Shown in pieces: positions 28,551-39,665 of a stretch of DNA of 64,000 nucleotides. Position numbers and translations under genes: made by a program. Source of the stretch: Sphingomonadaceae bacterium (GTDB lineage Bacteria; Pseudomonadota; Alphaproteobacteria; Sphingomonadales; Sphingomonadaceae); contig JAKFUU010000040.1 of assembly GCA_021732525.1 (NCBI GenBank), forward strand, positions 1 to 64,000, read 5' to 3'. Each line of letters starts with the position of its first letter. Position 1 is the first letter of the stretch. The notes below the pieces were generated by a model. That model was not told the DNA's origin and ran no database searches. It saw nothing but the letters and a program-made list of their open reading frames with translations.

Positions 28551-28660
28551 CGTCATGCTGAACTTGTTTCAGCATCCATCCTGCCGCACGGGCGGAGCTA
28601 GAAAGTTGAAATGGACCCTGGAACGCAGTCACCGCAAGGTGAAACAAGTTCAGGGTGACG
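28551..28660. repeat. Repeat family A, copy 1 (nuoK-nuoL spacer)
   Basis: Two palindromes back to back: TGCTGAACTTGTTTCAGCA on one side and CCCTGG..ACAAGTTCAGGG on the other, bounded by GTCA at the left and TGAC at the right, with a variable centre of about 40 bases. The outer ends are complementary, so the whole unit can fold as one long hairpin. This copy is 110 bases. Three more copies are in the nuo operon at 31866, 34408 and 36942. It is non-coding and would leave a stable stem in the mRNA just upstream of nuoL. Confidence 0.85.
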
Positions 28661-28682
28661 GTGTGTGTGATTGCCACGGCGC

Positions 28683-28988: not shown

Positions 28989-29602
28989 AATTCGACCCCC
29001 TGCCCAACCGGCTGCTGTATTTTGCGCACCGCGTCTTGCGGCCGGCGCTGGTTTTGGCGGCTGATATTCTGACCGCGCGTGCCGTGGCTGGGCCGATGGG
29101 TGAGCACGATCGCACCGATCATTGCCACGAGTAGGATCAAGCCCGCCGTTTCAAAAAGGAAGATATATTTGGTATATAACAAATTGCCGATTGCCTCGAT
29201 ATTGGGGGTGACGTTGGAAATGGCGGCCTTGCCGTCCGCTACGCCCAGCTCCACCGTGCCGGCACGATACGCGCCAATGCCCAGCACCAATTCGCAAACC
29301 AATATAAACGCGAGCAATAGCCCCAGCGGCACATTCTTGACAAAGCCCGCGCGCAATTCGGCAAAATCAATATCGAGCATCATCACCACAAACAGAAACA
29401 GCACCGCGACCGCGCCGACATAGACGATTACCAACAGCATTGCGATAAATTCTGCCCCCACCAATATCATCAATCCCGCTGCATTAAAAAATGCAAGGAT
29501 CAACCACATCACGCTATGCACCGGATTGCGGGCAAAGATCACCATCGCGGCAGATGCAATGACGATGGCGGCGAACAGATAGAAGGCGATGAGTTGGGTC
29601 AT
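28985..29602 (-). CDS. nuoJ: NADH-quinone oxidoreductase subunit J
   Basis: 205 residues, five membrane helices: [52 protein letters not shown] (conserved GA bend), [20 protein letters not shown], and [23 protein letters not shown]. The C-terminus carries a polar tail ([21 protein letters not shown]). The 206 bases upstream, towards nuoI, hold a repeat-B palindrome. Confidence 0.96.
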
Positions 29603-29634
29603 ACGGCAAACCCCGCCCGCAGGGCAAAAAAAGA

Positions 29635-29764
29635 TTCACGCGGAGACGCAGAGGCGCGGAGAAAGTTAAACCTTAAAACTTTGCGACCAATGCGCACAAT
29701 AATATTTGGTTCGCGCAAAGTGCGCCGTGAAACAAATCTCCGCGCCTCTGCGTCTCCGCGTGAA
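29635..29764. repeat. Repeat family B, copy 1 (nuoI-nuoJ spacer)
   Basis: A long inverted repeat: TTCACGCGGAGACGCAGAGG at the left returns as its reverse complement at 29745-29764, and the arms extend inward through CGCGGAGA. The centre is about 75 bases and A/T-rich. Related copies lie at 35887 and 38941. The arms are themselves made of short GCGGAGA/GCAGAGG units. Non-coding; probably a dispersed palindromic element. Confidence 0.85.
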
Positions 29765-29808
29765 CAAAATTCTTTCTGAAGCTGCTGTCTCATCATTATT
29801 CGCAGCCC

Positions 29809-30297
29809 TTAACGATACGGCGCATCGGCGGCAAGGTTTGCCGCGATTGCCCGCTCCCATTTGTCGCCATTATCCAGAAGCTTTGCCTTGTCATACAGCA
29901 ATTCTTCGCGGGTTTCGGTGGCATATTCGAAATTTGGTCCTTCGACGATGGCATCGACCGGGCAAGCCTCTTGGCAGAATCCGCAATAGATGCATTTGGT
30001 CATGTCGATGTCGTAACGCGTGGTGCGGCGGGAGCCGTCTTCCCTTGGTTCGGCCTCAATGGTGATCGCCTGCGCCGGACACACCGCCTCGCACAGCTTG
30101 CACGCGATACAGCGTTCCTCGCCGCCCGGATAACGCCGCAGCGCATGCTCACCGCGAAAACGCGGGGACAGCGGGTTTTTCTCAAACGGATAGTTGATCG
30201 TCGCCTTGGGCTTAAAGAAATATCGCAAGGTCAGCAGGTGCGCCTTGATAAATTCCCACAAGGTGAAGGATTTGATGAGGTGGGCGATGGTGGTCAT
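29809..30297 (-). CDS. nuoI: NADH-quinone oxidoreductase subunit I
   Basis: 162 residues, the usual alphaproteobacterial length. It carries clusters N6a and N6b near the quinone end of the peripheral arm: [12 protein letters not shown] and [12 protein letters not shown] give the eight cysteines of two 4Fe-4S clusters. The N-terminal amphipathic helix ([17 protein letters not shown]) sits at the membrane; the family signature [20 protein letters not shown] is present. ATG 30297 overlaps the stop of the inserted exported-protein gene by four bases. Confidence 0.97.
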
Positions 30298-30809
30298 CGG
30301 TTTTCTGCTTCCAACGAAATGAATTTAATACGACAAATTCCAGTATTTATAGATTTCCCATCTTTAAAAATAGATAATGTACTAGGCTGCCCATCATTTG
30401 AACCCAGAGCATAGGTCATTTCTACTATAGATTCTTTATCTGCGCCAACAGATTTGAAAGTATGCACAACGTGAAATCGGCCTTTATTTTTTATCTGGGT
30501 ATAAGTTTTATATTTTTCTTTAAGGAACTCTCCGAATTCTTTGTCAATCGCAACCAATCCCTCTCCACTATCTTCTTCCAATTTAAAGCCTTTCAACAAA
30601 AAATGTCTAAATTTTCCTTTGAAAATTTTTGGATTATCATCATCAGATTTCATTTGGCAGGACCATTCAACGGGATTTAGCCCTTTCACCGGAACGCCTC
30701 TATTAATTGTGGTAAAGGTGCCATCCCCCCACTCTTCAGTAGCATGTGCTGGAGCTTCCATAGAAACCCCGATCACCACCATAATGAGAAACATCACTAC
30801 AAATTTCAT
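30294..30809 (-). CDS. Uncharacterised exported protein inserted between nuoH and nuoI
   Basis: 171 residues. A signal peptide ([20 protein letters not shown], cleavage after AHA at 23) sends it to the periplasm. The mature part is Lys-rich and probably beta-rich, with only two cysteines (WSCQMK near residue 50 and TGICRIK near the end) that could form a disulfide. I recognise no family. The DNA is clearly richer in A+T than the flanking nuo genes, which suggests recent transfer. It overlaps nuoH by four bases at its start and nuoI by four at its end, both ATGA, so it is fully co-translated with complex I. Confidence 0.75.
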
Positions 30810-31852
30810 CCCCAATGCCCCTTCCACATCAAATATCCACTCACCAAAAACACCCAGAACAGACTGATCGGCAGGAACACTTTCCACCCCAGCCGCATCA
30901 GCTGATCATAGCGGTAACGCGGCACGGTGGCCTTAATCCAGCTGAAAATGAAGAAGAAGAGCAGGATTTTGGCGAATAACCAGATGATGCCCGGCACATA
31001 ATAAAGCGGCGCCCAATCGACCGGCGGCAGATATCCGCCCCAGAACAGCACCGCATTCAGCGTACACATGAGCAGCACATTGGCATATTCGCCGAGCCAG
31101 AATAACGCGAAGCTCATCGACGAATATTCGGTTTGATAACCCGCGACCAGCTCGCTTTCCGCCTCGGTCAAATCAAACGGCGCGCGCGCGGTTTCGGCCA
31201 AGGAGCTGATCAGAAACATGACAGCGACCGGAAAAAGCAAAAGGTTGAAACCAAAAGCGTTGACAATGCCCAGCCCATGCCCGCGCTGCGCCTCGACAAT
31301 ACCGGCCATGTTGAAGGTGCCCGCCCACAGCACCACGGAAATGATGATGAAACCGATAGAAACCTCATAACTGATCATCTGCGCGGCGGCGCGCATCGCG
31401 CTGAAAAACGGATATTTCGAATTGGAGGCCCATCCCGACAGCACCACGCCGTAAACGCCCAGCGAGCTGATCGCCAATATATACAGCAAGCCGACATTGA
31501 TGTTGCTGAGCACCACGCCCGCATCGAACGGGATCACCGCCCAAGCGAGCAAGGCCACGGTAAAGGTTATGATCGGCGCGATCAAAAACAGCCCGCGGTT
31601 GGATGCCGACGGGATAATGGTTTCTTGCAAGAATACTTTTAAGCCATCGGCGAAGCTTTGTAACAGCCCAAACGGTCCGACCACATTCGGCCCGCGCCGC
31701 AACGCCATCGCCGCCCAGATTTTGCGGTCCGCATAAATGATCATCGCAACGGCAAGCATGAGCGGCAGTGCAATCAGCAGAATACCGATAATCGTGGCGG
31801 TGAACCAAGCCACTTCATAGGACATGCCGAGTGATTGGAAGAAGGCGGTCAT
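30806..31852 (-). CDS. nuoH: NADH-quinone oxidoreductase subunit H
   Basis: 348 residues, eight membrane helices; it forms the quinone chamber with NuoB and NuoD. Signature segments are [56 protein letters not shown] (with [15 protein letters not shown]) and [22 protein letters not shown]. The stop overlaps the start of the inserted exported-protein gene. A repeat-A copy lies in the spacer from nuoG. Confidence 0.97.
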
Positions 31853-31865
31853 GCTAAAACTCTTT

Positions 31866-31954
31866 CGTCATGCTGAACTTGTTTCAGCATCCATCGTGAA
31901 GCACGACCGGAGCTCGAACGGCAAACTGGACCCTGAAGCAAGTTCAGGGTGACG
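31866..31954. repeat. Repeat family A, copy 2 (nuoG-nuoH spacer)
   Basis: 89 bases. Left part GTCATGCTGAACTTGTTTCA, right part CCCTGAAGCAAGTTCAGGG then TGACG, with a short variable centre. Same architecture and orientation as copies 1 and 3. It lies 13 bases upstream of the nuoH ATG, leaving little leader outside the hairpin. Confidence 0.85.
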
Positions 31955-31982
31955 GTATTTGTGCGTGGGCAAGGCGCATTTA

Positions 31983-34010
31983 TCATTCCGCCGCCTCCAG
32001 CATCGCTTCCCCATGCACCAATTCCCGGCTGCATAGATTCATCGTCTCGCTCGCGCGGCAGATGGCATTGGTCAGGTAAAAATCCTTAATCGGATAGGCC
32101 AACGGCCCCGATGGCTTCGCATCCAGCTTGGGCAATGCCCAGCCATAATTGGCCAAACCTTCTGCCGCCAGCCCGGGAACATCCGCAACCATCGCCGCGC
32201 GGCATGCAGCGAAATTGTCAAAGGGCAATTTATACCCTAGCACATCGGAAAGCGCGCGGAAAATCGCCCAATCTTCGCGGGCATCGCCCGGTGCAAAGAC
32301 CGCCTTGCTGGCATGCTGAATCCGGCCCTCCAGATTAACGAATGTGCCATCTTTTTCGGTATAGGCGCTTCCCGGCAAGATCACGTCCGCCGCGCTCGCT
32401 CCTTTGTCGCCATGATGGCCGACATAGACCTTGAATGTCTTGGCAAATTTGGAGAAATCCACCTCATCCGCGCCCAGAAAAAAGGCCAACTTTGGTTCTG
32501 CGGCGGCGATATCGGCTATCCCGCCCGGCTGCGCATAGCCCAGCATCAATCCGCCCATCCGGCTCGCCGCCATATGCAGCACGTTAAAGCCATTCCATGC
32601 TCGGCCATCGTCGAGCGTGCGGATCAGATTATATTTCTTCACCAGCGCCAGCGCGGCACCGTGCACGCCGTCCACCGCAAGGCCGCCGCCGCCAACGATC
32701 ACCACCGGGCGTTTCGCCGCCTTCATCGCGTCTACTGCTGCCTTGGGCAGGCTCGCGATCTTGCCCGCGTCATTGCTGAGCCATTCGACCTTATAGCTAA
32801 GGTCGGTTTCTGGCCCGATGGCGAACACTTTCGCGCCGCCTTTACGCACCGCTTTTTGGATCCGCGTATTCACCAGCGGCGCTTCCCAGCGGACGTTGCT
32901 GCCGATGATCAGGATGCAGTCGGCCTCTTCAATGCCAGCGATCGTCGTGTTGAAATTCACTGCAGAAAGCGAAGTTACGTCATATTTCAGGCCGGTTTGC
33001 CGCCCCTCGAGCATAGCCGAACCCATCTTGGCAAGCAACGCCTTCGCCGCATACATCGTTTCGCAATCCACCAAATCACCGGCAATCGCGGCGACCGACG
33101 ATCCTGCATTCACCGCCGCGATTGCCGCAAAAGCCTCAGCCCAGCTTGCCGGGGCCAGCTTGCCATCGGCGCCGCGCAGATAGGGCTGATCAAGGCGGCG
33201 ATGGGTGAGGCCATCGACCGCATGGCGCGTCTTGTCGCTCGCCCATTCTTCATTCACATCATCGTTGATCATCGGCACGGCGCGCAGCACCGCCCGGCCC
33301 CGGCTGTCGATCCGCACATTGGTGCCCACGGCGTCCATCACGTCGATGCTCGCTGTTTTCTTCAGCTCCCATGGCCGCGCTTCAAAGGCGTAGGGCTTGG
33401 CGGTAAGCGCGCCAACAGGGCACAGATCGACGACATTGCCCGAAAGCTCGCTTGTCACCGCATGTTCCAAATAGCTGGTGATCTGCATATTCTCACCGCG
33501 CCCCGTCGCGCCAATTTCTTCCACACCCGCAACCTCTTCGGCAAAGCGGATGCAGCGCGTACACTGGATGCAACGGGTCATGACCGTCTTAACAATCGGC
33601 CCCATATATTTCTCGGTCACCGCGCGCTTATTTTCTTCATAGCGCGATTGCCCGCGTCCATAAGCAATGCTCTGATCCTGCAAATCGCATTCACCGCCCT
33701 GATCGCAAATCGGGCAATCGAGCGGGTGGTTGATCAGCAGAAATTCCATCACACCCTCGCGCGCCTTTTTCACCATCGCGCTGTCGGTGCGGATAATCTG
33801 TCCTTCGGTGGCGGGCAGCGCGCAGGAAGCCTGCGGTTTGGGCGGGCCGGGGGCCACTTCAACCAAGCACATGCGGCAATTGCCCGCAATGGACAGCCGT
33901 TCGTGATAGCAGAAACGCGGAATTTCCTTGCCCGCAAGCTCGCAAGCCTGCAAGACGGTGGCGCCAGCGGGGACTTCGATTTCGTGGCCGTCTACGGTGA
34001 CTTTAGGCAT
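31983..34010 (-). CDS. nuoG: NADH-quinone oxidoreductase subunit G
   Basis: 675 residues, the size of alphaproteobacterial and mitochondrial (NDUFS1) forms. N-terminal 2Fe-2S ferredoxin domain (CYHERLSIAGNCRMCLVEV, with a further Cys in QASCALP), the His-Cys3 4Fe-4S site HPLDCPICDQGGECDLQD, then the third 4Fe-4S site CIQCTRCIRF plus LCPVGALT. The rest is the molybdopterin-oxidoreductase-like domain without the cofactor. The start ATG shares one base with the stop of a small coiled-coil gene (TAATG). A degenerate copy of its first ~84 bases lies upstream at 34236-34337. Confidence 0.97.
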   Translation of the reverse strand: MPKVTVDGHEIEVPAGATVLQACELAGKEIPRFCYHERLSIAGNCRMCLVEVAPGPPKPQASCALPATEGQIIRTDSAMVKKAREGVMEFLLINHPLDCPICDQGGECDLQDQSIAYGRGQSRYEENKRAVTEKYMGPIVKTVMTRCIQCTRCIRFAEEVAGVEEIGATGRGENMQITSYLEHAVTSELSGNVVDLCPVGALTAKPYAFEARPWELKKTASIDVMDAVGTNVRIDSRGRAVLRAVPMINDDVNEEWASDKTRHAVDGLTHRRLDQPYLRGADGKLAPASWAEAFAAIAAVNAGSSVAAIAGDLVDCETMYAAKALLAKMGSAMLEGRQTGLKYDVTSLSAVNFNTTIAGIEEADCILIIGSNVRWEAPLVNTRIQKAVRKGGAKVFAIGPETDLSYKVEWLSNDAGKIASLPKAAVDAMKAAKRPVVIVGGGGLAVDGVHGAALALVKKYNLIRTLDDGRAWNGFNVLHMAASRMGGLMLGYAQPGGIADIAAAEPKLAFFLGADEVDFSKFAKTFKVYVGHHGDKGASAADVILPGSAYTEKDGTFVNLEGRIQHASKAVFAPGDAREDWAIFRALSDVLGYKLPFDNFAACRAAMVADVPGLAAEGLANYGWALPKLDAKPSGPLAYPIKDFYLTNAICRASETMNLCSRELVHGEAMLEAAE

Positions 34011-34243
34011 TAATGCTCCGTATCCTTCAAGCCCATGCGCGTTTCAATCCGGTCCACGCGGACTTTCAAATGAGCAACGTCGGCCTGGATTCCATATAGC
34101 GTGGTCAGCGTTCCGCGAAAATGATCTTCAAGCGAAGATACCCGCATTTCGAGAGAACGAATATCGTGCTTTATCTCGCCGATATCCATCTGTATGCTTT
34201 TCAGAATTTCAATGACCAAATCGGTCCGATCCACCTCAGTCAT
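34010..34243 (-). CDS. Small coiled-coil protein inserted upstream of nuoG (paralogue 2)
   Basis: 77 residues from ATG 34243. Entirely helical, heptad-like (LVIEILKSIQMDIGEIKHDI, MRVSSLEDHF, VRVDRIETRMGLKD). It aligns end to end with the 75-residue protein at 37084-37311: MTE start, LxxExLxxI, MR, LE/VE-[DE]H, T-x-[LF]-G, RV/RL-x-R-[IV]-E-x-R, LKD. No function known. It is not a nuo subunit; its stop overlaps the nuoG ATG and its start overlaps the stop of the nuoG fragment, so it is coupled on both sides. Such short proteins recur in alphaproteobacterial genomes as I recall them. Confidence 0.7.
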   Translation of the reverse strand: MTEVDRTDLVIEILKSIQMDIGEIKHDIRSLEMRVSSLEDHFRGTLTTLYGIQADVAHLKVRVDRIETRMGLKDTEH

Positions 34244-34337
34244 CAATCTTCTCCTTGCCCACAAGCTCGCAAGTGTAAAGGACGCCCGCGCCTGCGGGCA
34301 CTTCGATTTCGAGGCCATCTACGGTGACTTTAGGCAT
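34236..34337 (-). pseudogene. Partial copy of the nuoG 5' end
   Basis: A 33-codon frame from ATG 34337 begins MPKVTVDGLEIEVPAGAG, nearly the NuoG N-terminus (MPKVTVDGHEIEVPAGAT). By hand about 71 of the first 84 bases match nuoG in register; similarity stops at GGCAAGGA and the frame ends in TGA overlapping the coiled-coil ATG. Many differences are at third positions. It is a broken duplicate left beside the inserted small gene. It could still be translated as a leader that couples nuoF to the small gene. Confidence 0.85.
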
Positions 34338-34407
34338 TAGTCTCCGCCCCCACAATCACCACCACCATCGAATGATGTCGACGATTCAGCCGCCTCCATC
34401 AAAACAC

Positions 34408-34519
34408 CGTCATGCTGAACTTGTTTCAGCATCCATTGCTCAACACGCCCAGAGCTTGAGCGGACAAATGGACCCTGGAACGCAGTCACCGCAAGGTGAA
34501 ACAAGTTCAGGGTGACCGT
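34408..34519. repeat. Repeat family A, copy 3 (nuoF-nuoG spacer)
   Basis: About 112 bases with the same outer arms as copy 1: GTCATGCTGAACTTGTTTCA at the left, ACAAGTTCAGGGTGAC at the right, and the same internal variant TGGAACGCAGTCACCGCAAG as copy 1. Copies 1 and 3 are thus a longer subtype than copies 2 and 4. It lies between the nuoF stop and the nuoG fragment. Confidence 0.85.
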
Positions 34520-34554
34520 AGTTTTGCCAAATGCGGCGGTGGATAGGTTCCTTA

Positions 34555-35856
34555 TCATTCCGCCGCCTCCATCATTTTGTCCGATCCCTTACGCTCAATA
34601 ATCCGGCGCTCCATCTCTGGGCGGAAATGCTTGATCAGCCCTTGGATCGGCCAAGCCGCCGCATCGCCGAGCGCGCAGATCGTGTGGCCTTCGACCTGCT
34701 TAGTCACTTCATACAGCGTGTCGATATCCCCAATGTCGGCATCGCCCACGCGCATTTTTTCCATCACGCGCCACATCCATCCGGTGCCTTCACGGCACGG
34801 CGTGCATTGGCCGCATGACTCATGCTTGTAGAAATAAGAGAGCCGCGAAATCGCCTGCACAATATCGGTGCTCTTATCCATCACGATGACGGCGGCGGTG
34901 CCAAGGCCCGATCCAACCGCTTTCAGCCCGTCAAAATCCATCGGCGCATCCCAAATTTCGGACGCCGGAACCAATGGCACCGAAGAGCCACCGGGGATCA
35001 CCGCCAGCAAATTATCCCGCCCGCCGCGAATGCCGCCGCAGTGTTTTTCGATCAACTCGCTAAACGGAATGCTCATTGCTTCTTCGACGACGCAGGGTCT
35101 TTCGACATGGCCGCTAATTTGGAACAGTTTTGTGCCGCGATTATTCTCTCGCCCGAAACCGTTGAACCATGCCGCGCCGCGCCGCAGGATGGTGGGCACC
35201 ACCGCGATGCTCTCGACATTGTTGACGGTGGTGGGGCAACCATACAGCCCCGCGCCCGCCGGAAAGGGCGGTTTCAAACGCGGCTGACCCTTTTTGCCCT
35301 CCAGGCTTTCGAGCATCGCGGTTTCTTCACCGCAAATATAGGCGCCCGCGCCCCGGTGGACGAAGACATCGAAATCATAGCCCGATTTGGCCGCGTTTTT
35401 TCCGATCAATCCGGCATCATAAGCCTCTTGCACGGCGGCAAACAAAGTCTCGGCCTCGCGGATATACTCGCCGCGAATATAGATATAGGCGGCGCGCGCG
35501 CGCATCGCATATCCGGCGATCAACGCCCCTTCGATCAGTTTATGCGGATCATGGCGGATAATTTCGCGGTCTTTACAGCTGCCGGGTTCGGATTCGTCGG
35601 CGTTGATGACCAAAAAGCTTGGACGCTCCGCCGTTGGCGCTTTGGGCATAAAGCTCCATTTCAGGCCGGTGGGAAAACCCGCCCCGCCCCGCCCGCGCAG
35701 GTTAGATGCCTTAATTTCGTCGATGATCGCGTCTTGGCCGACCTTCATGAGGTCCTTGGTCTTATCCCAATCACCACGCCTTTGCGCAGCCTTCAGGTTC
35801 CATGGCTGATAGCCATAGACGTTGGTGAAGATGCGGTCTTTATCAGCGAGGCTCAT
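34555..35856 (-). CDS. nuoF: NADH-quinone oxidoreductase subunit F
   Basis: 433 residues. It holds the FMN and NADH sites and cluster N3. [19 protein letters not shown] is the FMN-binding glycine-rich loop; [36 protein letters not shown] and [20 protein letters not shown] line the nucleotide pockets; the 4Fe-4S ligands are in [14 protein letters not shown] and the later [12 protein letters not shown] repeat-B copy separates it from nuoE. Confidence 0.97.
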
Positions 35857-35886
35857 AACGTTGCTCCCGCCCGAAGGGCAGAAAAG

Positions 35887-35990
35887 GTTTCGCGCAGAGG
35901 CGCAGAGAAAGCAAAGCGCGCAGAGGGGGGCATGCCTTTGAGTTCAAAAATCTCTGCGACCTCTGCTTTCTCTGCGCCTCTGCGCGAAAC
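35887..35990. repeat. Repeat family B, copy 2 (nuoE-nuoF spacer)
   Basis: 104 bases. The left arm GTTTCGCGCAGAGGCGCAGA returns inverted at the right end (TCTGCGCCTCTGCGCGAAAC, 35971-35990), and the arms extend inward through GAAAGC. It has the same plan as copies 1 and 3 but with GCGCAGAGG units in place of GCGGAGACG. A GC-rich CCCGCCCG(A)AGGGCA motif just outside the left arm is also next to copy 1. Confidence 0.85.
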
Positions 35991-36028
35991 AAAATTAAAG
36001 CCGCTCAAACGCGGAATGAAGACAATCA

Positions 36029-36697
36029 TCACCAATCCCCCCGGTAATCATGATTTTTGCCAACCATTTCTTTCAGCGTCGTTGGTCCGCCCTGCGGCTC
36101 GACGGTATGGCGGCCGGGCAATTGCGTTCCCGGCTTGGGCTGCTCACCTGCCGCCAGCGTTTCCAATATGCTGGTCATGCTGTCAAAATCCAAATCTTCA
36201 TAATTATCGTCGTTAATCTGCACCATCGGCGCGGATGAGCAATTGCCCATGCATTCCACCTCGGTGAGCGTAAACAGGCCGTCGGGCGTGGTCTTGCCCT
36301 TATTCATACCCTTATTCTTGCATGCCGCCATCACATCGTCGCTGCCGCGCAGCAAGCAAGGCGTCGTGCCGCAAACCTGCACATGAAACCGGCCCACGGG
36401 CGCGAGATTATACATGGTGTAGAAAGTTGCCACCTCATAAGCGCGCATATACGGCATATCGAGCATGGCGGCGACATATTCGATCACCGGAACGGGCAAC
36501 CAGCCTTGCGTCTGCGTCTCCGCCCCCACCTGACGCTGCGCCAGGTCGAGCAGCGGCATTACGGCAGAGCGCTGCCGCCCGGCGGGATAGCGCGCGATGA
36601 TGATCTTCGCTTGCTTCAGGTTCGCGGGCGTAAAAGCGAAGTCACCCCACTTTGCGCGGGTTTCGGTTTCGTCGGGGATGATGGAGGTTTCAGCCAT
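36029..36697 (-). CDS. nuoE: NADH-quinone oxidoreductase subunit E
   Basis: 222 residues from ATG 36697 (MAETSIIPDETETRAKW). Thioredoxin-like 2Fe-2S subunit (cluster N1a). The four ligands are in CGTTPCLLRG and CMGNCSSAPMV; helical N-terminal domain with YPAGRQRSAVMPLLDLAQRQ and YMRAYEVATFYTMYNL. The start overlaps the stop of the preceding small gene by eight bases. A 43-base near-copy of its 5' end lies upstream at 37041-37083. Confidence 0.96.
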   Translation of the reverse strand: MAETSIIPDETETRAKWGDFAFTPANLKQAKIIIARYPAGRQRSAVMPLLDLAQRQVGAETQTQGWLPVPVIEYVAAMLDMPYMRAYEVATFYTMYNLAPVGRFHVQVCGTTPCLLRGSDDVMAACKNKGMNKGKTTPDGLFTLTEVECMGNCSSAPMVQINDDNYEDLDFDSMTSILETLAAGEQPKPGTQLPGRHTVEPQGGPTTLKEMVGKNHDYRGDW

Positions 36698-36932
36698 TGG
36701 CGCGCTCACATTCAATCTTGAATTGTCCCAGACGACCAAGCGTTCTTGCTGCAATCACGTTACAATCCCTAACGTCCCGGCTAATCGAAGCCAGTTTTCG
36801 GTCAATGTCTCTAAGCGCGAGAGCAATCTTACGCAGCAACGGCCTTTCGGCCTCTGGCTCGAATTCAATTGAGTCGAACAGTGCACCTATCAGTTGACTC
36901 TTGGTCATTTCGGCAAGCTTTGATTTAGCCAT
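36690..36932 (-). CDS. Small helical protein inserted upstream of nuoE
   Basis: 80 residues from ATG 36932, nine bases after repeat-A copy 4. Charged and helical: KLAEMTKSQLIGALFDSIEF, ERPLLRKIALALRDIDRKLASI, and two cysteines (RDCNV and IECERANG). No signal peptide, membrane segment or recognised domain. It shares the amphipathic style of the two coiled-coil paralogues but I do not see a true alignment. It overlaps the nuoE start by eight bases, so the two are translationally linked. Confidence 0.6.
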   Translation of the reverse strand: MAKSKLAEMTKSQLIGALFDSIEFEPEAERPLLRKIALALRDIDRKLASISRDVRDCNVIAARTLGRLGQFKIECERANG

Positions 36933-36941
36933 AACTACCAC

Positions 36942-37032
36942 CGTCACCCTGAACTTGTTTCAGGGTCCATCTATAAGCCGAGACCATTGGTTTGCGTGTC
37001 GAAATGGATGCTGAAACAAGTTCAGCATGACG
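36942..37032. repeat. Repeat family A, copy 4, inverted (upstream of nuoE)
   Basis: 91 bases in the opposite orientation to copies 1-3: it begins CGTCACCCTGAACTTGTTTC and ends CTGAAACAAGTTCAGCATGA. Centre short, as in copy 2. On the minus strand its end GACGGTGG lies just before the ATG of the small gene at 36932, so it may supply the leader for that gene. The other side abuts the nuoE 5' fragment with only eight bases between. Confidence 0.85.
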
Positions 37033-37040
37033 CGAAAGAA

Positions 37041-37083
37041 CGCGGGTTTCGGTTTCGCCGGGGATGATGGAGATTTCAGCCAC
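37041..37083 (-). pseudogene. Partial copy of the nuoE 5' end
   Basis: On the minus strand the sequence from 37083 reads as codons V-A-E-I-S-I-I-P-G-E-T-E-T-R, against MAETSIIPDETETR in nuoE. By hand 40 of 43 bases match in register, with differences at the start codon (GTG for ATG), codon 4 and codon 9. It begins directly after the stop of the coiled-coil gene at 37084 and ends eight bases before repeat A copy 4. It is a broken duplicate, more recent than the nuoG fragment judging by its fewer differences. Confidence 0.88.
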
Positions 37084-37311
37084 TTATGATGCATCTTTCA
37101 AATCAAGGCGGCTCTCGACGCGCGACAGGCGTTCGTCAAAACGGTCCATGCGCTGATTTAAGCCAAAAATACTTGTCTGGATACTAAGAAGATGCTCCTC
37201 AACCGCCGTCATGCGCAGCTTCACATCTTTTACGCCTCCCTCGATATTGGAAAGACGGTCATCAATCCGCCGCAGGCGTTCAAGAATCAGATTTTCTACA
37301 TTCTCAGTCAT
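37084..37311 (-). CDS. Small coiled-coil protein inserted in nuo operon (paralogue 1)
   Basis: 75 residues. Helical with heptads: NLILERLRRIDDRLSNIEGG, MTAVEEHLLSI, RMDRFDERLSRVESRLDLKD. It is a clear paralogue of the 77-residue protein upstream of nuoG. No signal or membrane segment; probably self-associating. The stop codon directly abuts the nuoE fragment, so before the insertion of repeat A and the 80-residue gene it probably lay immediately upstream of nuoE. Function unknown. Confidence 0.7.
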   Translation of the reverse strand: MTENVENLILERLRRIDDRLSNIEGGVKDVKLRMTAVEEHLLSIQTSIFGLNQRMDRFDERLSRVESRLDLKDAS

Positions 37312-37412
37312 ATCAATGCTCTTTGTGTCAATAACAACGTCAATAACACGATACTAGCCCGCCTTGTTCGGATTGGGAGCGCGCCGGAGATGATCGATGC
37401 GTCGTAGATGCA

Positions 37413-37682
37413 TCAGCCATCAACTTGTTCTTTCCGATCCTTGAACCAGAAAAACCACAACAGCAACAAGGCACAAACACCGCCCAAGGCATATCCAAAT
37501 AAAGGAAGGTCTTCGAGTGAACCTCTGCCTGCTTTAATCCCAGCACTAAGCAAACCAAGCGCATACCAAAAACCCGCAATTTTGCCGCCCGAATAGCCAG
37601 CTCGCCCAGCCAAAAATGACAGAACTACGGCATTCAGACCGATAAAGACAAAAGCCTCAATGAATTCGGCAGCAACAGCCAT
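37413..37682 (-). CDS. Small membrane protein coupled to nuoD
   Basis: 89 residues from ATG 37682, sharing one base with the nuoD stop (TGATG). Two or three membrane segments: EAFVFIGLNAVVLSFLAGRA, GFWYALGLLSAGIKAG (weaker) and FGYALGGVCALLLLWFFWF, then a charged tail KDRKEQVDG. I recognise no family and it is not a nuo subunit. The 101 bases after it, before the coiled-coil gene, show nothing definite. The base composition is slightly more A+T-rich than nuoD. Confidence 0.65.
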   Translation of the reverse strand: MAVAAEFIEAFVFIGLNAVVLSFLAGRAGYSGGKIAGFWYALGLLSAGIKAGRGSLEDLPLFGYALGGVCALLLLWFFWFKDRKEQVDG

Positions 37683-38893
37683 CACCGGTCACACTCCCCA
37701 AACACCACATCGATCGCGCCAATAATCGCGGTCGTATCCGCCAGCATATGGCCTTTGCTCATCATCTCCATCGCTTGCAGATGACTGAACGCTGTGGGGC
37801 GGATTTTGCAGCGATAGGGTTTGTTGGTGCCGTCCGCGATCAGGTATACGCCAAATTCGCCCTTGGGGCTTTCGGTGGCGACATAGACCTGGCCCTCGGG
37901 CACGTGGAAACCTTCGGTATAAAGTTTGAAATGATGGATCATTGCTTCCATCGATTGCTTCATTTCGGCGCGTTTGGGCGGGCTGACTTTGCGGTCATCG
38001 CTGCACACGGGGCCTTGCGGCATTTCGAGCAAACATTGCTTCATGATGCGCACCGATTGCCGCACTTCTTCGACGCGGACCATGAAACGGTCATAACAAT
38101 CGCCGCCCGTGCCCACGGGCACGTCGAAATCCATTTGGGCATAGACATCATAAGGCTGGCTCTTGCGGATGTCCCATGGGATGCCGCTGCCCCGGATCAT
38201 CGGGCCGGAAAAACCCCATTTGATCGCGTCTTCCTTGCTCACTATGGCGATATCGACATTGCGCTGTTTGAAAATACGGTTGTCGGCGACCAGGCTGATC
38301 GCATCGCCGAACAGCTTGGGCATCCTTTTATCGAGCCAATCGCCGATATCGGTGAGGAGCTTCAACGGCACATCCTGATGCACCCCGCCGGGCCGAAAAT
38401 AAGCGCAATGCATCCGCGCCCCGCTTGCGCGCTCAAAAAAGTTCAAGCAATCTTCGCGTATTTCAAACAGCCACAGGTTGGGCGTCATCGCACCCACATC
38501 CATCACATGCGCCCCAAGGTTGAGCATATGGTTGCAGATGCGCGTCAGCTCGGCAAAAAACACCCGGAGATATTGCGCGCGGATCGGCACCTCCAAATTG
38601 AGCAGTTTTTCGATGGCGAGCACATAGCTATGCTCCATCGCCAACGGACTGCAATAGTCGAGCCGGTCAAAATAGGGCAAAGCTTGCAAATAAGTTTTAT
38701 GCTCGATCAGCTTTTCGGTGCCGCGATGCAGCAGGCCGACATGCGGATCGAGCCGTTCGATAATCTCTCCGTCGAGCTCCATCACCAACCGCAAAACGCC
38801 GTGTGCGGCGGGATGTTGCGGGCCGAAATTGATCGTATAATTTTCGATGGCTTGATCGCCGGTGGTGGGCGCTTTTTCGATAATCAGGCTCAT
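37682..38893 (-). CDS. nuoD: NADH-quinone oxidoreductase subunit D
   Basis: 403 residues, the separate NuoD form (not fused with NuoC). Quinone-site subunit: [15 protein letters not shown] with the conserved His pair, [64 protein letters not shown] and [13 protein letters not shown]. The C-terminus ends [10 protein letters not shown], as usual. A repeat-B copy lies in the spacer from nuoC. Confidence 0.97.
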
Positions 38894-38940
38894 AAGGCAA
38901 ATCCCGCCAAGGCATATTTTGCGCCGATAGGCGTTATAGG

Positions 38941-39031
38941 TTTTTCACGCGGAGACGCAGAGACGCGGAGAGCGTGGGCCGCGATTTCACCGCTCAAAAC
39001 CCTCCGCGTCTCTGCGTCTCCGCGTGAAAAA
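38941..39031. repeat. Repeat family B, copy 3 (nuoC-nuoD spacer)
   Basis: 91 bases. TTTTTCACGCGGAGACGCAG at the left returns as CTGCGTCTCCGCGTGAAAAA at 39012-39031; the arms are perfect for about 30 bases and the centre is only ~30. The arm sequence is nearly that of copy 1, so copies 1 and 3 are closer to each other than to copy 2. It would form a very stable stem 16 bases after the nuoC stop (in the direction of transcription). Confidence 0.88.
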
Positions 39032-39047
39032 TTGACAAGAGCTACGC

Positions 39048-39665
39048 TCATTTTTTTGCTCCCTTCTCATCCCCAGGCAGCACATAGTCGGTGCCCTCCC
39101 ATGGCGACAGGAAATCAAAGCTGCGAAAATCCTGCGCCAATTGCACCGGTTCATATTTCACGCGCTTTTCTTCCTCCGAATAACGCAGTTCGACATAGCC
39201 GGTCAGCGGGAAATCCTTACGCTGCGGATGGCCTTCGAAACCATAATCGGTGAGGATACGGCGCAGGTCGGCGTTGCCCGAAAATAGCACGCCATACATA
39301 TCAAACACTTCGCGCTCGAGCCAGCCCGCCACCGGCCAGATACCGGTAACCGACGGCACTGGATCGGCCTCATTGGTCGCCACATGCACGCGGATACGGT
39401 GATTTTTGGTCAGGCTGAGGAGGCAATAAACCACTTCAAACCGCGGATCACGACTCGGCCAATCGACCCCGGCAATTTCCATCAATTGTTGATAGCCGCA
39501 TACATCGCGCAGCGCGGTCATCGCGTCGACCAGCGCGCCGGATTTCACATGCAGACCAATTTCGCCATTGGCCTCATCCAGGCGCACAAGCATTTTGCCG
39601 AGCGCCTTTTTAATCTCGGTCTTTACGCCTTTGGGATGCGCGATAGCGGGGGCGGAATGGGCCAT
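39048..39665 (-). CDS. nuoC: NADH-quinone oxidoreductase subunit C
   Basis: 205 residues. Peripheral-arm subunit (30 kDa homologue). The signature [22 protein letters not shown] is present in the form [20 protein letters not shown], followed by [22 protein letters not shown] and [20 protein letters not shown]. It starts three bases after the nuoB stop. Normal length; nothing unusual seen. Confidence 0.96.

Follow-up and report, generated by a model that had tools for sequence, protein, structure and literature searches.

Bacterial complex I operons are generally considered to be well conserved. Unidentified reading frames (URFs) lie between the nqo/nuo genes of Paracoccus and Rhodobacter, and insertion with long target duplication has been described for restriction-modification genes. 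In haloarchaeal operon-like structures, the excerpted account of PMC7760734 counts insertions as 86 of 946 single-type changes. For complex I itself, the excerpted text of PMC11522691 names NDUFS4, NDUFS6, NDUFA12 and a PIMT subunit as supernumerary subunits of the Paracoccus denitrificans enzyme, and says that three ancestral supernumerary subunits appear to stabilise the NADH module. Here we describe extra small genes in the complex I (nuo) operon of a Sphingomonadaceae bacterium and its relatives, starting from a 64,000-nucleotide (nt) stretch of its DNA (GCA_021732525.1, contig JAKFUU010000040.1, positions 1 to 64,000), which we call the window.

The operon lies on the minus strand in a host genome of 3.0 Mb. 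Five extra open reading frames (ORFs), all on that strand, are found between nuoD and nuoI at the positions that an earlier reading of the window without database searches (the sequence-only reading) had named. They are spread over three junctions (D/E, F/G and H/I, after the flanking nuo genes) and comprise two coiled coils, an exported-looking protein, a small membrane protein and a helical protein (Table 1). The phenomenon is real and more general than that reading supposed: several nuo junctions are recurrent slots in this family, and translation is kept across most of their inserts.

Recurrent slots in the nuo operons of Sphingomonadaceae

We measured the distances that separate neighbouring nuo genes in 104 operons, one of them the window's; these comprise 80 named loci around nuoF plus stretches of further relatives, and are not wholly independent (e.g., L074 and L175 represent one locus). 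Gaps of at least 120 nt occur at D/E in 84/102 operons, E/F in 60/102, F/G in 61/102, G/H in 33/100 and H/I in 23/99. Elsewhere the counts are 0/97 at A/B, 8/99 at B/C, 10/100 at C/D, 16/95 at I/J, 5/93 at J/K and 5/92 at K/L. Among other families of the order (seven loci returned from 16 genomes), D/E and E/F are tight in 7/7 and F/G in 6/7. Thus the D-to-I junctions are habitual insertion places of the Sphingomonadaceae. The D/E, E/F, F/G, G/H and H/I junctions are recurrent slots at which small genes and palindromic repeats come and go. It follows that the five genes are not simply, as the sequence-only reading had it, foreign to an otherwise conserved operon, because the same junctions are often filled in the family and the coiled coils and exported gene have counterparts there.

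Contents vary by junction (insert classes are rough, made by profile and hydropathy). The 84 filled D/E gaps hold small membrane ORFs in 42 cases, SnoaL-like proteins in 39 (an assignment confirmed by Pfam for one member) and a coiled coil in nine; the 60 at E/F hold small membrane ORFs in 52 and a coiled coil in nine; and the 61 at F/G hold an exported family in 38 and a coiled coil in five. SnoaL-like genes occur at D/E only, and the exported family chiefly at F/G. The nearest sampled relative of the window (L167, 92% NuoF identity) carries a SnoaL-like gene at D/E, an exported-looking 186-aa (amino acid) gene at F/G and no insert at H/I; these contents are unlike the window's, so the slots turn over. 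At D/E of L012, a gene that looks cupin-like by eye stands between nuoD and a 49-nt copy of the end of nuoD, stop codon included.

Translation is kept across most inserts

A gap of at least 110 nt was scored as bridged if ORFs of at least 25 codons formed a chain between the stop of the gene before and the start of the gene after, every join lying between -14 and +8 nt, and the expectation came from 40 dinucleotide shuffles per gap. By this measure 270/315 gaps in the 104 operons are bridged vs 67.4 expected, i.e., bridging is 4 times commoner than in shuffles; the named loci alone (L004-L083) give 196/218, with 47.5 expected. In these named loci, with I/J left aside, gaps longer than 600 nt are bridged in 44/53 cases (2.4 expected). 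The I/J junction is the exception (5/20, 4.0 expected). Kept translation across nuo inserts is a family-wide pattern, counted here in nuo operons, and the claim that coupling survived the insertions therefore holds well beyond the window; we infer that selection maintains it.

In the window, C/D, E/F, F/G, G/H, H/I and K/L are bridged and I/J is not. Four of the five extra ORFs have bases in common with a nuo gene, as had been noticed from the letters. The exported ORF has a 4-nt ATGA overlap with both nuoH and nuoI. Coiled coil 2 overlaps nuoG by 1 nt (TAATG) and the end of an ORF made from a nuoG start fragment by 8 nt. The membrane ORF overlaps the nuoD stop (GTGATG) by 4 nt if GTG 37685 is its start or by 1 nt if ATG 37682 is, and the helical ORF stops inside the nuoE start, with 8 nt in common (ATGGCTGA) and a further 8-nt overlap with the end of a nuoE-fragment ORF. 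The exception is coiled coil 1, which abuts a nuoE start fragment: its TAA runs directly into the GTG of the fragment, with no common bases. Promoter-like and terminator-like sites in 29500-38000 show no excess over chance. One ORF in L171 fuses a nuoE start, a repeat and a nuoD end.

The main rival explanation is that the inserts are passengers, i.e., that any short ORF or repeat which preserves translation survives in a large, highly expressed operon and has no role in complex I. We consider this a real possibility, though one short of even odds. It would explain why bridging is no less frequent in short gaps than in long ones (60/61 at 110-160 nt in the named loci without I/J, 26.8 expected), and why four window gaps that contain only repeats (C/D, E/F, G/H and K/L) are bridged too. 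It also suits the low G+C of the inserts (0.37-0.49 vs 0.54-0.59 in nuo genes) and the membrane and helical ORFs, for which codon use gives no coding support. The variation of slot contents by junction speaks against it, as do the properties of the coiled coils given below. Codon use supports both coiled coils as coding, and the exported ORF weakly.

Table 1. Coordinates in the window of the extra ORFs, gene-start copies and repeats of the nuo operon
Feature	Position	Strand	Remarks
nuoD-nuoI part of the complex I operon	29809..38893	-	contains the slots
Exported-looking two-cysteine ORF	30294..30809	-	171 aa; fills H/I; G+C 0.37
G/H repeat ORF	31849..31986	-	bridges nuoG to nuoH
Coiled coil 2	34010..34243	-	77 aa; F/G type of nuo-linked coiled-coil family; mechanical ORF starts 34318
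Duplicated nuoG start	34252..34339	-	86 nt coding, 85% identical; precedes coiled coil 2
Palindromic-repeat ORF	34337..34558	-	73 aa; nuoF stop to nuoG fragment start
E/F repeat ORF	35853..36035	-	bridges nuoE to nuoF
Helical orphan ORF	36690..36932	-	80 aa; best start ATG 36932, stop 36690; mechanical ORF starts 36947
Duplicated nuoE start	37041..37083	-	42 nt, 95% identical; precedes helical ORF
Coiled coil 1	37084..37311	-	75 aa; D/E type of nuo-linked coiled-coil family
Small membrane ORF	37413..37685	-	90 aa; D/E; two hydrophobic stretches by eye
C/D repeat ORF	38890..39051	-	bridges nuoC to nuoD
Palindromic repeat family copies	28551-28662, 31866-31977, 34408-34519, 36942-36978		several nuo junctions

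A nuo-linked coiled-coil family

Coiled coils 1 and 2 match each other at E=2e-6, which bears out the earlier suggestion that they are paralogues. A first profile was built from five members, all from nuo loci and with both window copies among the seeds. It matched 27/397 Sphingomonadaceae genomes at E<=1e-3, and at E<=1e-9 placed 19/25 matches in nuo operons (15 genomes, 11 genera) and six elsewhere. Because this profile was nuo-biased, we repeated the search with a balanced one (eight seeds, half of them non-nuo), which at E<=1e-8 gave 16/24 matches in nuo and eight elsewhere, one of the eight (G351 contig C31) being assigned solely by a contig differing from that of nuo.

The loci examined contain 23 copies in nuo operons (nine at D/E, nine at E/F, one of these a partial match, and five at F/G) and six elsewhere. 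The five F/G copies, which include coiled coil 2, group as a single clade in a tree cited without support values, and for both window proteins other genera have relatives at the corresponding junction, D/E or F/G. In L144, L145 and L150, a coiled-coil gene alone occupies D/E with -4/+1 overlaps, an arrangement that probably preceded the present one at the window's D/E junction. Outside Sphingomonadaceae, the balanced profile matches 23/289 genomes of a class sample, some of them weakly.

For pairs of at least 50% identity, the only ones for which it was computed, the proportion of synonymous differences (pS) is 0.52-0.85 (mostly near saturation) vs 0.15-0.38 for nonsynonymous differences (pN); e.g., coiled coil 1 vs L145 gives pS 0.79 and pN 0.24, and coiled coil 2 vs L154 gives pS 0.81 and pN 0.26. 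As pS is well above pN across genera, the protein is constrained, i.e., under purifying selection. Coiled coils 1 and 2 are thus members of the nuo-linked family, defined by a profile match and a location at D/E, E/F or F/G, and show protein-level constraint. This constraint and the junction-specific descent of the F/G clade are what a pure passenger would not be expected to show; the family's patchy presence, and the other housekeeping genes that some relatives adjoin, fit a passenger.

The structure model of coiled coil 1 is a single helix over residues 2-68 (predicted local distance difference test score, pLDDT, 92). Solved structures matching the coiled-coil profile were mostly coiled coils of unrelated proteins and were set aside as reflecting composition only. 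The same applies to weak Pfam, NCBIfam and PHROGs matches, which we read as coiled-coil composition only; in PHROGs, the two coiled coils were the only ones of the five ORFs to match.

The H/I protein

Of the 23 H/I gaps of at least 120 nt, 17 are filled by an ORF of at least 80 aa, and 16 of these 17 ORFs end 4 nt inside nuoI. Their export was read by eye from hydrophobic N-termini. All 13 long single-domain H/I ORFs, the window's included, have a cysteine at residues 15-55 and another 8-20 residues from the end, in residue ranges that were chosen after the data had been seen and with the shorter lipoprotein-like L007, L063 and L075 and the two-domain L030 left out; shuffles gave a mean of 0.9/13 (maximum 5 in 2000), and ORFs at other junctions 4/33. 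The window's ORF belongs to this set by its overlaps at both ends and its cysteine pair, and is likely to be the local form of a disulfide-bonded periplasmic protein that changes fast and is co-produced with NuoH and NuoI.

A single-sequence search of 298 Sphingomonadaceae genomes with the exported ORF found it in its own genome only. In pairwise comparison it scores z=5.2 against the L013 protein and z<=1.7 against the other H/I proteins shown. A first alignment of 12 H/I proteins was discarded, having misplaced the cysteines. The exported-looking protein at H/I of L030 (L030:14348-15139) consists of two tandem domains, both of which carry a cysteine pair.

Gene-edge copies and the route of insertion

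The nuo fragments pointed out by the sequence-only reading are genuine (Table 1). The nuoE start copy reads on through a palindromic repeat as a 52-aa ORF that ends at 36925, and the nuoG fragment ORF is 33 aa long and ends at 34236, within the start of coiled coil 2. These direct repeats are seen in the window's F/G and D/E junctions, and in window 1-28000 and 41000-64000 there are no direct repeats of at least 30 nt within 2.5 kb. Among the 315 gaps, six contain a copy of the downstream gene's start and seven a copy of the upstream gene's end, vs 0 and 0 in a reversed-gap control. On the gene-edge side, 10 of the 12 alignments shown end no more than 2 bases from the start or stop codon. The copy in L079 extends five bases further, and that at G/H of L171 about seven further with one mismatch, into paralogous genes. 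The membrane ORF may add a third nuo-start copy in the window, since its 3' end enters a 12-nt nuoE-start-like stretch (ATGGCTGATGCA, 37420-37409) which is identical to the nuoE start of L167, L056 and L011; being short, it is only suggestive. ORFs that begin like nuoE and run into the palindromic repeat are stacked from nuoD to nuoE in L171 and L172.

Such copies could arise by insertion with target duplication or by one-sided homologous recombination, both of which are possible routes, and they suggest how inserts might enter without breaking coupling. The D/E and F/G inserts of the window probably arrived stepwise, leaving the nuoE- and nuoG-start copies behind.

A different origin would be transfer out of another nuo operon, in which homologous recombination joined one side and an illegitimate event the other, with the recipient's own gene start left as a remnant. 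Other genera do have the donor-type order nuoF-coiled coil 2-nuoG, and the excerpted text of PMC3240628 describes one-sided recombination of such a kind. However, the functional nuoG start of the window is nearer to relatives in its genus (up to 0.91) than to four other bearers of coiled coil 2 (0.69-0.74), so its import with coiled coil 2 from a sampled bearer, which we tested, is unsupported. In all rows shown, the nuoG copy is more distant from the relative than the functional start, which suits a decaying duplicate of the window's own start at least equally well. We therefore regard transfer as unlikely.

The coiled coils could also be a small mobile or selfish family which inserts beside well-translated genes and duplicates the target's start. 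The family is scattered in Alphaproteobacteria beside varied genes, and both window copies adjoin duplicated nuo starts. Yet a copied gene start is present in 0/17 other operons with nuo copies, several of which show clean -4/+1 fits; in Sphingomonadaceae the family is concentrated in one operon and not spread; and none of the five ORFs matches a transposase or integrase (or anything in PADLOC). This makes a selfish family very unlikely.

Arrival of all five genes as one imported block was considered and dropped, given their three junctions, differing composition and differing relatives.

Remaining ORFs and repeats

The membrane and helical ORFs are supported by their open frames and overlaps and are the weakest of the five; they are orphans and may be passengers. 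Against Pfam and NCBIfam, none of the five ORFs gave a match above the curated cut-offs. A plasmid search with the exported, membrane and helical ORFs and a phage search with the helical ORF likewise gave nothing. The palindromic repeat family translates as LNLFQ.../HAELVSAS.../KQVQHD, and related repeat ORFs stand at nuo junctions of L009, L028, L038, L057, L079, L080 and L102.

Favoured explanation

The solid part of the finding is the coupled slots and the nuo-linked coiled-coil family. Around it we favour an explanation in which inserts would be kept mostly if their ORFs overlap or nearly touch the preceding and next genes, letting ribosomes pass between genes. Coiled coils 1 and 2 belong to one protein family, found at these junctions in many genera and with a branch specific to F/G; they are probably long-helix oligomers made together with NuoE, NuoF and NuoG, and most likely they would serve the NADH module as accessory proteins or help in its assembly. 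The H/I protein, probably exported and fast-changing as described above, is part of the same explanation. We give this explanation as a whole a probability of roughly 0.55. Its functional element, an accessory or assembly role of the coiled coils in complex I, is preferred and taken by itself stands somewhat under even odds. Accessory factors and passengers, the two options offered by the sequence-only reading, are still the live alternatives.

Several results weigh against the favoured explanation. On the side of coupling, 45/315 gaps are unbridged, the window's D/E among them, where the chain is interrupted for about 100 nt from the membrane ORF to coiled coil 1. On the side of the coiled coils, a search of 45 genomes of the window's own genus with coiled coil 1 found a match in one only, the window's own, so the gene is dispensable. 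The non-nuo copies in L158, L160, L162 and L163 adjoin genes that by eye look like pntAB, thrS, sucC/etfB and folP. On the condition that would have refuted the sequence-only reading, relatives with no link to nuo, the outcome is mixed: most coiled-coil relatives from Sphingomonadaceae belong to nuo operons, with 6/25 or 8/24 elsewhere depending on the profile, and outside this family nuo genes are present in 0/27 loci fetched around coiled-coil matches.

The H/I protein raises further objections. Six of the 23 H/I gaps lack an ORF of the expected kind (five of these are shorter than 175 nt); the sixth, in L079, has instead a 154-aa membrane-like ORF starting 25 nt in. A crude hydropathy rule calls six of the 23 gaps exported-like and four small-membrane, and the cysteine ranges were fitted after the fact. 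The H/I proteins resemble one another only faintly in pairwise comparison (mean z 0.53 over 78 pairs, four pairs above 3, control -0.01), and the structure model of the exported ORF has a pLDDT of 37, its fold not being modelled. Finally, the membrane and helical ORFs lack a codon signal, and neither has a relative in 298 Sphingomonadaceae genomes beyond its own. Comparison with relatives' nuo operons, which the sequence-only reading had proposed, gives counterparts for the coiled coils (at matching junctions) and for the exported gene (the H/I set, matched by position, overlaps and cysteine pair and for the most part not by sequence), and no relative for the membrane and helical ORFs.

A more far-reaching possibility is that complex I has lineage-specific variants in Sphingomonadaceae, in which each junction would encode an interchangeable accessory protein that joins the complex close to the product of the neighbouring gene, and new genes would enter via a copied coupling site. 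Long-helix coiled coils would then sit by the NADH module, disulfide-bonded periplasmic proteins would come from H/I, and the copied coupling site would be a gene start or end, allowing uptake without loss of stoichiometric translation. We think this doubtful.

These junctions bear on the question of how genes can be added to a coupled operon while it stays intact. One bacterial family offers about 270 bridged gaps at fixed places, and in a few of them scars may record the steps taken. New lineage-specific accessory subunits would come from the small proteins, provided that these bind complex I.

Comparison with known systems

The supernumerary subunits of alphaproteobacterial complex I are extra non-core proteins bound to the complex. 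The window's proteins, as putative accessory proteins, resemble them in being extra; unlike them, they are encoded inside the operon and vary between species. The known supernumerary subunits were not recognised in the five ORFs with Pfam and NCBIfam at curated cut-offs, no subunit-by-subunit search having been made. The URFs of the Paracoccus and Rhodobacter nqo/nuo operons are likewise extra ORFs between nuo genes in Alphaproteobacteria. Compared with these URFs, the recurrent slots, the overlaps and the coiled-coil family are described here from Sphingomonadaceae; none of the titles and abstract openings that our literature searches listed describes extra genes in sphingomonad nuo operons.

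In insertion with long target duplication, the insert is also flanked by a direct repeat of its target and the neighbours are intact. The window and its relatives differ in that the repeat is 17-86 nt long, has one edge at or near a start or stop codon and comes with no restriction-modification genes. Operon evolution by internal insertion, as treated in the excerpted account of PMC7760734, is gene gain inside an operon, as here. By that account it is a rare route in haloarchaea, whereas the nuo operon of Sphingomonadaceae shows it commonly, at several of its junctions.

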